Below are positions 12,718 to 15,170 of a stretch of DNA of 37,412 nucleotides, piece by piece (within the stretch, counting starts at the first letter, position 1; every line of letters starts with the position of its first letter). Where the stretch lies: NCBI GenBank assembly GCA_007124945.1, contig SLED01000352.1, positions 1-37,412 on the forward strand. Reading direction: 5' to 3'. The position numbers and the translations under genes were made by a program. A model generated the notes under the pieces. The model saw only the letters and a list, made by a program, of their open reading frames with translations, made no database searches and had not been told where the DNA came from. Origin of the DNA: Salinibacteraceae bacterium (GTDB lineage Bacteria > Bacteroidota > Rhodothermia > Rhodothermales > Salinibacteraceae).

Positions 12718-14019
12718 ATGCGTGTAGACATCCTCACTGTTGGAGACGAATTGCTTATCGGTCAGGTGGTGAATACCAATGCCACATGGCTCGGTGAGCA
12801 GTTTTCTGCAATGGGAGCCCGCATCGGCCGGATCGTTTCGATGGCGGACAACCACAACTCGATTCAGGCAGAGCTGCAGCGGAGCGTGGAAGTAGCGGAT
12901 GTCGTGGTGCTCAGTGGAGGAATTGGTCCAACGCACGACGATGTTACGCGGCAGGCGCTGGCCGACTTCTTCGGTGTCGAACTCTGTTTTGACGCATCGA
13001 TCTATCAGCGAATTGAGGAGCGGTATGCTGCTCGTGGACAGACGCCGCCAGAGAGTAATCGCGCGCTGGCCGAAATTCCGGAAGACTTTGAGGTACTAAA
13101 CAACCCCATTGGTACGGCTCCGGGCCTCTGGCACACCGTTACGGATGGCGAAGAGACAACGGTGGTGATAGCGCTACCCGGCGTGCCGGGTGAGTTAAAG
13201 GCCATCGTGCAGGATTATGTCGTACCCCGGCTTAAAGATGAGGTCTCTCTTTCATCCAGTGCTCAGCGAACGCTGCTTACGGCAGGGCTCGGTGAGTCAG
13301 AGCTACAGGAGCGGCTTCAATCCTCTAAGCTCTTGGAAAACGATGAGGTGGAGCTCGCCTATCTGCCAAGTAGCAAAGGGGTGCGGTTGCGTCTAACGGC
13401 CCACGCCTCATCGGCGCAAGAGGCGCGGGAAAAACTGCAGGCGCTCGAAGAAAAAATTCGTGAACGGGTTTCCGACTACATCTACGGCATGGACAACGAT
13501 ATGCTTGAGGCGATCGTTGGGGAAATGCTGTTTGAGCGTGGATTGACGCTTGCGGTGGCAGAAAGCTGTACCGGAGGATTGCTTGCGGATCGCATCACGA
13601 ACGTACCGGGCTCTTCGCGCTACATGAAAGGGGGGGTTGTGGCCTACAGCAACACGCTGAAGGAGGAACTGCTCTCCGTTTCAGTTGACGATCTTCGGAT
13701 GCAGGGAGCTGTGAGCGAGGTTGTCGTACTGCAGATGGCCGAAGGAATACGTGAGCTTGCGCACACGGATGTAGGCATGGCCATCACGGGAATCGCTGGC
13801 CCAAAAGGAGGCACACCCGAGAAACCGGTTGGAAGCGTTTGGATAGGCCTGGCAACCGCCGAGGATGCCCGTGCCGAAACCTTTGTCTTCACCACCGATC
13901 GCCTGTTCAACAAAGATCGCTCGTGCACGGAGGCGCTAAACATGTTGCGCCGATTTTTACAGGAAGAGTCAGATGTACAAGATACCGCGGAAGTCTCGAT
14001 TGAGGCTCCAAAGCAATAG
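12718..14019 (+). CDS. cinA: CinA-family protein (NMN amidohydrolase, competence/damage-inducible)
   Basis: This 433-residue protein has the two-domain CinA layout. The N-terminal MoCF-like domain (about 3-170) begins MRVDILTVGDELLIGQVVNTN and carries VVVLSGGIGPTHDDVT; in characterised members it has ADP-ribose/CoA pyrophosphatase activity. The C-terminal CinA domain (about 265-415) carries LAVAESCTGGLLADRIT, with the serine and cysteine region of the NMN deamidase. Together these domains salvage pyridine nucleotides. cinA sits next to recA in many bacteria and is DNA-damage induced in some; the same neighbour order occurs here. It follows pyrE after 23 bases, with recA 101 bases further on. 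The length is normal for the full-length form. Confidence 0.95.
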   Translation: MRVDILTVGDELLIGQVVNTNATWLGEQFSAMGARIGRIVSMADNHNSIQAELQRSVEVADVVVLSGGIGPTHDDVTRQALADFFGVELCFDASIYQRIEERYAARGQTPPESNRALAEIPEDFEVLNNPIGTAPGLWHTVTDGEETTVVIALPGVPGELKAIVQDYVVPRLKDEVSLSSSAQRTLLTAGLGESELQERLQSSKLLENDEVELAYLPSSKGVRLRLTAHASSAQEAREKLQALEEKIRERVSDYIYGMDNDMLEAIVGEMLFERGLTLAVAESCTGGLLADRITNVPGSSRYMKGGVVAYSNTLKEELLSVSVDDLRMQGAVSEVVVLQMAEGIRELAHTDVGMAITGIAGPKGGTPEKPVGSVWIGLATAEDARAETFVFTTDRLFNKDRSCTEALNMLRRFLQEESDVQDTAEVSIEAPKQ

Positions 14020-14030
14020 TTTTTTTGAGG

Positions 14031-14052
14031 GGGTGACACACTGTTGTCACCC
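14031..14052. promoter_or_regulatory. Perfect inverted repeat between cinA and recA
   Basis: GGGTGACA (14031-14038) and TGTCACCC (14045-14052) are exact reverse complements around a six-base spacer, 68 bases before the recA ATG. There is no T run behind it on the plus strand (a run of seven T lies before it), so it is a poor intrinsic terminator. It may be a protein-binding operator for recA or an RNA hairpin in the cinA-recA transcript. Confidence 0.4.
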
Positions 14053-14078
14053 TGCGGTATTACATTGAAGAAGAGGCT

Positions 14079-14109
14079 GGTTCGAACCGCAATCATTCCA
14101 TTTGATAAT
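14079..14109 (+). promoter_or_regulatory. Candidate recA promoter with GTTCGAAC palindrome
   Basis: GGTTCGAACC (14079-14088) is a perfect 10-base palindrome 32 bases before the recA ATG. Its core TTCGAA (14081-14086) lies exactly 17 bases before GATAAT (14104-14109), a reasonable -10. A repressor bound here would block recA transcription. GTTC/GAAC half-sites are common in LexA boxes of several phyla, though in other arrangements. Both the promoter and the operator are hypotheses. Confidence 0.3.
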
Positions 14110-14120
14110 CGCCACACCTG

Positions 14121-15170
14121 ATGTCCTCGAATAACGAACCGAAGAAAAAAGCACTCGATCTCGCGCTGAAACAGATTGACAAGCAGTTCGGCAAGGGGTC
14201 CATCATGCGCATGGGCGATACGCCGCCGCTCAACGTTGATTCGATCTCGACGGGTTCCCTTACGCTGGATCATGCGCTTGGAATAGGCGGCGTGCCGCGC
14301 GGCCGTATCGTTGAGATCTACGGGCCCGAATCGTCCGGTAAAACCACTCTGGCGACGCACATAATTGCCGAGGCCCAGAAGGAGGGGGGCACGTGTGCAT
14401 TTATCGATGCCGAGCACGCTCTGGATCCGGGCTACGCCCGCAAGCTTGGTGTCGACGTCGACGAGTTGCTGGTTTCCCAACCCGATACCGGTGAACAGGC
14501 GCTCAATATCACGGAAACGCTCGTGCGGTCCGGAGCGCTGGATGTGATCGTTATTGACTCCGTGGCGGCGCTCGTGCCGCAGGCTGAGATCGAGGGTGAA
14601 ATGGGGGATAGCCACGTCGGCCTTCAGGCTCGACTGATGAGCCAGGCGCTGAGGAAATTGGCCGGTATTATCAACCGGACGAAAACGGTGCTCATCTTCA
14701 TCAACCAGATCCGGATGAAGATCGGCGTCATGTTTGGCAGTCCGGAGACGACCTCTGGTGGTCGGGCGCTGAAGTTTTACTCCTCCATTCGGATGGATAT
14801 ACGTCGCATCGGGGCCATTAAGGACGGCACCGACGTGGTGGGTAACCGCACGCGGGTGAAGGTGAAGAAAAATAAAGTTGCCCCGCCGTTTCGTGAAGCT
14901 GAGTTCGACATTATCTACGGCGAGGGCATTTCTTCGCTGGGAGAGTTGATCGATCTCGGCGTGGATGCAGGCGTGATAACGAAGAGTGGCTCCTGGTATT
15001 CGTACGGTGATGAGACACTTGCCCAGGGCAGGGAGGCCACCAAAGATTGGCTCCGCGAGCATGAGGAGGAGCGGGAGACGATCAAACACTCCATCAAGGT
15101 AGAGATGGGTATGATACCGACGGACGAAGACGAAAACGAAGAGGAAGAGCCCGAGGAACAGGAGGCGTAG
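14121..15170 (+). CDS. recA: Recombinase RecA
   Basis: This 349-residue RecA forms ATP-dependent filaments on single-stranded DNA, drives homologous pairing and strand exchange, and triggers LexA self-cleavage in the SOS response. Walker [10 protein letters not shown] is at 68-76, Walker B is in [14 protein letters not shown], and loop 1 is in [18 protein letters not shown]. The DNA-binding loop 2 follows [20 protein letters not shown], with [13 protein letters not shown] at its end. The tail is strongly acidic (Glu/Asp-rich, last ~17 residues), normal for RecA. It follows cinA and precedes the SLOG-type gene by 34 bases, so those two may be cotranscribed. Dyads upstream could serve damage-dependent control. 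Confidence 0.98.

Follow-up and report, generated by a model that had tools for sequence, protein, structure and literature searches.

A conserved palindromic operator upstream of recA in Salinibacteraceae, shared with many DNA-repair genes, and its putative WYL-domain activator

The window, by which we mean the whole 37,412-nucleotide stretch of Salinibacteraceae DNA that was analyzed, contains recA preceded by cinA on the same strand. The closest named relative of its RecA, at 77% identity, comes from a Rubricoccaceae MAG (L022), which makes membership of the window in the Rhodothermia probable. Upstream of recA lie two dyads, GGGTGACA-CACTGT-TGTCACCC (dyad 1) and GGTTCGAACC (dyad 2), which an earlier sequence-only reading had proposed as possible SOS operators; both are present where it had placed them (Table 1).

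Table 1. Genes and sequence elements of the cinA–recA region, with positions in the window
Feature	Position	Strand	Assignment
cinA, gene upstream of recA	12718..14019	+	Pfam CinA, E 1.7e-54
Dyad 1	14031-14052 (full); core TGACA-CACTGT-TGTCA, 14034..14049	+ (towards recA)	Putative operator core
TACATTG	14061..14067	+	Probable -10, exactly 11 bases past the operator core
Dyad 2	14079..14088	no strand	Probably functionless here
GATAAT	14104..14109	+	-10 of the sequence-only reading; not supported
recA	14121..15170	+	Pfam RecA, E 5.6e-144, and RecA_C, E 5e-22; gene probably regulated

When GGTGACA-N6-TGTCACC was searched with up to two mismatches, dyad 1 was the sole match in the window, where shuffles gave an expectation of 0.19. 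It is also the genome's single copy of the exact 20-base form, and with two mismatches allowed, the whole genome holds 10 places versus 5 for a control pattern. Dyad 1 starts 12 positions past the cinA stop codon and can pair, as would befit an RNA hairpin terminating the cinA transcript, an outcome that the sequence-only reading had named as fatal to an operator. However, a scan for intrinsic terminators came up empty on both strands, the T-run (14020–14026) precedes the stem and thus lies on its wrong side, and the dyad recurs at many promoters with a constant gap to the -10 (see below). RNA folding of positions 14010–14120 was unremarkable (z -0.96). Dyad 1 was rejected as an intrinsic terminator on the basis of the scan and the T-run, and we give the hairpin practically no credence.

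Dyad 2 has a different standing. The word GGTTCGAACC occurs twice in the window versus 0.02 copies expected, and at 8 places in the genome versus none for the control, so that it is also above chance as a word, which would favor an operator in its own right. Against this, it has no match in the other 28 of the 29 recA upstream regions compared, and all seven other genomic copies lie inside reading frames. No tRNA was found near GGTTCGAACC in the seven loci scanned, by which a part of a tRNA gene was ruled out. An operator function of its own is highly improbable, the presence of dyad 2 at recA looks like chance on these sequence comparisons, and the earlier suggestion that it might be a LexA site did not hold up, the comparisons having given the outcome which the sequence-only reading had itself set as refuting it.

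Phylogenetic footprinting, which the sequence-only reading had proposed as a check, bore out dyad 1. Among 31 genomes, no recA was found in two (G003 and G023), leaving 29 loci with the window's own included. The core TGACA-N6-TGTCA is kept with at most one mismatch in 20 of these 29 upstream regions, versus 0.5% of shuffled copies; the nine recA loci that lack it belong to G004, G005, G008, G010, G011, G014, G016, G017, and G018. Dyad 1 was found at none of 80 named recA loci, most of which come from other phyla.

The conserved core stands in a fixed relation to a downstream element. In 14 of the 20 dyad-bearing recA promoters, TAnnTT lies at offset 11 from the core, and in one it lies at offset 12. 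The same offset stands out in an unselected set of 72 strand-sites, derived from 36 of the 40 exact cores of 8 genomes after removal of copies and unfetched cores: TAnnTT is found at offset 11 in 12 of them, and at any other offset in at most 2. Over 81 promoters, comprising the named target clusters, the unnamed family and the one WYL gene described below, with TnpB, other small groups, and other singletons excluded, the consensus is gTGACAcannGnTGTCACc-N8-gTAnnTT. In this set TAnnTT is selected by construction, whereas two further features are not. First, a -35 element is absent: none of the 81 promoters has TTG where a 17-base spacer would put the -35, and four of the six TTGACA positions are matched, at any spacer of 14–20, in at most 3. 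Second, the spacer of the dyad is asymmetric, with a G at 89% on one side only.

At the window's recA, TACATTG occupies this place. It resembles the TAnnTTTG box of Bacteroidota and, judged from the promoters of relatives, is the probable -10, with transcription of recA inferred to start near 14073. The sequence-only reading had instead drawn a promoter with a 17-base spacer overlapping dyad 2. Its elements, TTCGAA-N17-GATAAT, are indeed present, but their promoter status found no backing, as a sigma-70 scan of 13950–14140 returned no promoter and the -10 common to relatives is TACATTG rather than GATAAT. Many recA leaders of the window's family carry, by eye, GTGTCT about 11 bases after the -10 (L105, L108–L111, L114, and L115); the window's leader is without it.

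The TGTCR-to-TA distance of 11 is the same as that in the mycobacterial RecA-NDp motif, tTGTCRgtg-N8-TAnnnT. A peak at a single offset together with an absent -35 (TTG in 0 of 81) is also what is expected of activators of the DriD and PafBC kind, and the combination of fixed spacing and missing -35 suggests that an activator, as in those two systems, acts here. A directed operator that covers the -35 region and stands at a set distance from the -10 has the geometry that an activator contacting RNA polymerase would require.

Dyad 1 is not confined to recA. A count of the exact core in 8 genomes gave 40 occurrences, versus 5 for the pattern read backwards. The core, the 11-base gap, and TAnnTT together, with one mismatch allowed, returned 141 sites in 22 of the 31 genomes, versus 4 for the backwards control; a palindrome that fits in both orientations makes up two of the 141. 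The genomes without such sites are the same nine whose recA lacks dyad 1. Each site was assigned the downstream frame ranked best by script, rather than by annotation, and the proteins were then clustered and labeled from library scans of representatives; the labels Sak4-like (PHROGs, with Pfam AAA_24 below cut-off), PolX-like, and SbcD-like (both NCBIfam, below cut-off) are the weaker ones.

Recombination, repair, or topology genes follow 68 of the 141 sites, as expected of WYL DNA-damage activators of the DriD and PafBC kind. The large clusters are recA (14), ssb (11), Rad52/Erf-like proteins (7), Sak4-like ATPases (7), and recR (5), followed by ruvB (4), ruvA (3), and parC (3); radA, uvrB, PolX-like HHH, and AlkD-like proteins are represented twice each, and recO, SbcD-like, a family-B polymerase, a PolB-like exonuclease, an AlkZ-like glycosylase, and recT once each. 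Of the non-repair sites, 12 precede one family without a Pfam match, 4 precede TnpB genes, and 1 precedes a WYL gene, while the remaining 56 of the 141 stand before singletons or pairs of other kinds or before frames of doubtful reality. Two of the four exact cores in the window's genome lie before recA and ssb (L175); the other two, on inspection by eye, stand before a transposase-like frame (L167) and a gene of the unnamed family (L178). Among the papers listed from a largely open-access literature on LexA, SOS, WYL, or recA in Rhodothermaeota, Rhodothermus, Salinibacter, Balneolaeota, and Bacteroidetes, none describes such a regulon. On the strength of these sequence comparisons, dyad 1 is a conserved control site, an operator of the DNA-damage type that is common to many DNA-repair genes.

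The SOS-like nature of the regulated genes is what one would see if dyad 1 were the local LexA box, with LexA repressing recA until its RecA-driven cleavage relieves the repression, and the window's genome does contain a canonical LexA gene. It is one of three genes there with a LexA DNA-binding domain, the other two being of a DDGM type in which the catalytic serine is replaced. However, dyad 1 was found upstream of none of 30 LexA-search genes (300 bp, at most one mismatch), although the sequence-only reading had looked to lexA for a recurrence. Of 36 LexA matches in all, these 30 comprise all 3 of the window's genome and 27 of the 33 of a wider search; L159–L161, below the family cut-off, and three matches without a locus were dropped, while L156, retained among the 30, scores under the cut-off and resembles HrcA. 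Nor does the site distribution track cleavable LexA. Operator sites are missing from G010 and G018 despite their canonical LexA. Conversely, G020 (100% complete) holds 11 exact cores, of which four are copies of a single sequence, yet its sole LexA-domain match, in a search that does not cover CI-like LexA, is a DDGM-type protein without the catalytic serine.

The shape of the LexA box also differs. In Balneolaeota it is a direct repeat, TTACACATATTTTWTACATA, tested by EMSA in the part of the study available (PMC7739468), and nine canonical lexA promoters of the present set carry a resembling repeat with an 11-base period, ACTGTG-N6-ATGTG or close to it. In the window's recA promoter, a LexA-type repeat does not rise above shuffles (p 0.39). 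To see whether LexA takes over recA where the WYL gene described below was lost, a 24-base LexA matrix was built from the nine canonical lexA promoters, eight of them distinct; L142 of G022, whose alignment differs, was excluded. The matrix scores high in 3 of the 9 recA regions without the dyad (G005, G017, and G018; shuffle p ≤0.02) and in 2 of the 20 with it (G022 and G026), a difference between the groups that is not significant (p 0.11). Speaking against a non-LexA reading, the same Balneolaeota study counts recA in the LexA regulon in its available part (PMC7739468). Given the empty lexA promoters, the mismatch in distribution, and the differing published box, we rejected LexA as the owner of dyad 1; from sequence, the operator is probably not LexA's, and repression through it by LexA is quite unlikely. 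What survives of the proposed SOS operators is thus dyad 1, as a conserved operator common to other repair promoters, but without its attribution to LexA.

The DDGM-type proteins, encoded by 12 of the 30 genes (L001, L002, and L132–L141), constitute a second LexA-like family, which is widespread in the order and, from its sequence, looks non-cleavable. The promoters of 2 of these 12 genes (in G025 and G020) contain GTGAAA-N4-TTTCAC, possibly an operator of their own.

Two regulators were compared with the site distribution, LexA and a WYL gene. The search for WYL domains yielded an orthologous group, which a protein search found in 17 of the 31 genomes at an identity of at least 58%; the match in G022 has one stop inside. 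All 17 WYL-bearing genomes have sites, and the nine site-less genomes are without the WYL gene. Sites without a WYL gene found occur in G000, G012, G013, G015, and G023, which are 56–86% complete. On the RecA tree, loss of the WYL gene takes 3 changes; independent pairs number one if the tree is limited to well-supported branches and three if all branches are used, and all go in the same direction. The 31-genome set thus rests on few events, and Fisher values overstate the co-distribution.

A wider draw of 146 genomes included 73 from the order, 21 of which were already in the 31-genome set. The 43 order-level genomes with the WYL gene hold 226 sites (control 13), a mean of 5.3, versus 28 sites (control 5), a mean of 0.93, in the 30 without it (p 5e-10, with kinship ignored or partly allowed for). 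For genomes at least 93% complete, the means are 5.6 in 38 with the gene and 0.46 in 24 without, and genus means differ at p 6e-4 (23 versus 5 genera, with kinship partly allowed for at most). In the 52 genomes outside the first set, the mean is 4.0 for 30 with the gene versus 1.2 for 22 without (p 1.4e-6, again with kinship ignored or partly allowed for). As exceptions, G052 has the WYL gene and no site, and six genomes have at least 2 sites and no WYL gene found: G000 (2), G075 (3), G110 (2), G135 (2), G138 (9), and G149 (3). Four of these six are 86–92% complete, G075 and G110 falling outside that range. In the window's own assembly, which is 86% complete, neither a copy of the WYL gene nor its neighbor rsmG was found; that both are missing suggests, but does not prove, an assembly gap.

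The WYL proteins of G002 and G030 display HTH_11, HTH_PafC, WYL, and WCX above cut-off, the HTH-WYL-WCX architecture of known WYL damage activators. Among solved structures, PafBC is the one matched best by sequence and DriD is matched more weakly; the stretch VSRRTIFRD in the HTH is invariant in the 16 aligned orthologues of the 17. Downstream of rsmG, G002 has just one WYL reading frame, and G001, as judged by upstream sequence, has the same arrangement. The exact site lies upstream of three of the 17 WYL genes (G007, G027, and G030), versus 0.007 expected, and upstream of none of the other 14, that of G022 included.

We consider it likely, from the sequence comparisons, that dyad 1 is the operator of a DNA-damage regulon governed by a single homodimeric WYL-domain activator of HTH-WYL-WCX architecture; we infer that the WYL protein binds the site, does so as a homodimer, and activates. 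A different regulator, repressor or activator, that was co-inherited with the WYL gene might bind dyad 1 in its place, since the co-distribution stems from few independent losses and the exact site precedes no more than 3 of 17 WYL genes. Yet no other recurrent transcription factor turned up among the 141 downstream frames, inspected by eye and through the clusters, the sites before the WYL gene are far above chance, and the GAC/GTC half-sites resemble those of DriD, so that another regulator seems a rather unlikely owner.

The layout around the putative WYL operator can be set beside known systems. DriD, a WYL activator of Caulobacter that is stimulated by single-stranded DNA, recognizes ATACGAC-N7-GTCGTAT, a site that covers a weak -35 and keeps a constant distance to the -10 (preprint, PMC12340889, available part). 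The candidate described here shares with it the HTH, WYL, and WCX domains, a pseudo-palindrome with GAC/GTC half-sites, a site that overlaps poor -35 elements at a constant distance from the -10, and an apparent link to the DNA-damage response. Unlike the DriD site, the sequence here is TGACA-N6-TGTCA, that is, GAC-N8-GTC, and whereas DriD targets include didA, bapE, recJ, and dnaG, those here are recA, ssb, ruv, and rec genes (PMC12340889, available part).

Mycobacterial PafBC is activated by single-stranded DNA and acts through sigma adaptation at a -26 motif, recA being among its targets (PMC11804915, available part). Like the candidate, it is a WYL activator of recA and repair genes, and it acts at the -26 motif between sigma domain 4 and the DNA (available parts of PMC6789036, PMC11804915, and PMC8223512). 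Its motif is non-palindromic (PMC6789036, available part). Being a heterodimer, it differs from the system here, with one WYL gene beside rsmG (G001 and G002) and a palindromic operator. PafBC proper, with paired or fused pafB and pafC, was rejected because of the single WYL frame after rsmG and the palindromic operator. Mycobacterial SiwR, as is proposed for the candidate, is a homodimeric WYL activator, which responds to genotoxic stress from an imperfect palindrome between the -35 and the -10; its palindrome, however, spans 19 bases of another sequence, and it controls neighboring DinB-superfamily genes (PMC10693628, available part).

Two LexA regulons come from related lineages. That of Balneolaeota shares the DNA-damage control of recA presumed here, but its LexA is a repressor with a direct-repeat box, and TGACA-N6-TGTCA is not reported in the part of that study available (PMC7739468). 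The non-canonical LexA of Bacteroidetes, a related phylum, has a regulon that includes recA and topoisomerase IV genes, as here, but consists of phage-repressor-like S24 proteins (PMC8565304, available part). By anatomy, the dyad 1 operator would work like the sites of DriD, PafBC, and SiwR; its membership in this class is putative and hinges on binding.

By the proposed mechanism, single-stranded DNA made by damage would bind the WYL domains, and the activated dimer would bind TGACA-N6-TGTCA over the -35 region and recruit RNA polymerase to a promoter that has a -10 (TACATTG) and no -35. Damage would in this way switch on recA along with ssb, ruv, rec, and rad genes at other loci. That single-stranded DNA is the signal is presumed from the parallel with DriD and PafBC.

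The WYL damage activators in the papers cited come from mycobacteria and Caulobacter. If the present reading is true, an order-wide and possibly class-wide WYL regulon would mean that activation sensing single-stranded DNA can accompany or replace LexA derepression at recA, and the operator, promoter geometry, candidate protein, and target list are named here. In family f18, from the rest of the class (60 genomes), 277 sites were found versus 89 controls, a higher background, and 52 of the 60 genomes hold a 36–42% relative of the WYL gene; sites and relatives together indicate that the system probably reaches beyond the order. More tentatively, and with somewhat less than even confidence, we propose that a WYL activator gated by single-stranded DNA is the ancestral master switch of recombinational repair in the class (recA, ssb, ruv, rec, rad, and parC). 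It would work alongside a LexA that has a direct-repeat box of its own, and take LexA's place at recA in lineages like that of the window. The same regulon would also drive the uncharacterized family, Sak4-like and Rad52/Erf-like annealing proteins, and one CBASS cyclase. In lineages that lost the activator, the operators would have disappeared too, leaving recA perhaps to LexA alone.

Some of the genes behind the operator deserve separate description. Of all clusters behind the 141 sites, only that of recA is larger than the unnamed family (clustered members L168, L189, L197, L252, L297, L305, L319, L340, L352, L357, L359, and L361, with L178 added by eye). Its members show '..LFYDPPYE..' and an IDFVVE..FEIG stretch, which by eye recalls PD-(D/E)XK nucleases; Pfam, NCBIfam, PADLOC, and PHROGs, tried with one or two members each, gave no name. 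In G021, a CBASS-type oligonucleotide cyclase (L363, 1328–2368, minus strand; PADLOC E 6e-111) has an operator and -10 with zero mismatches upstream, which suggests a damage-inducible defense system. TnpB/IS605-type genes follow the operator in L172, L238, L345, and L349, so some mobile elements may respond to damage. In G029, two operator-bearing genes are interrupted (L170 and L298): ruvB is split by an intein-like insert bearing a LAGLIDADG motif, and uvrB by an intein.
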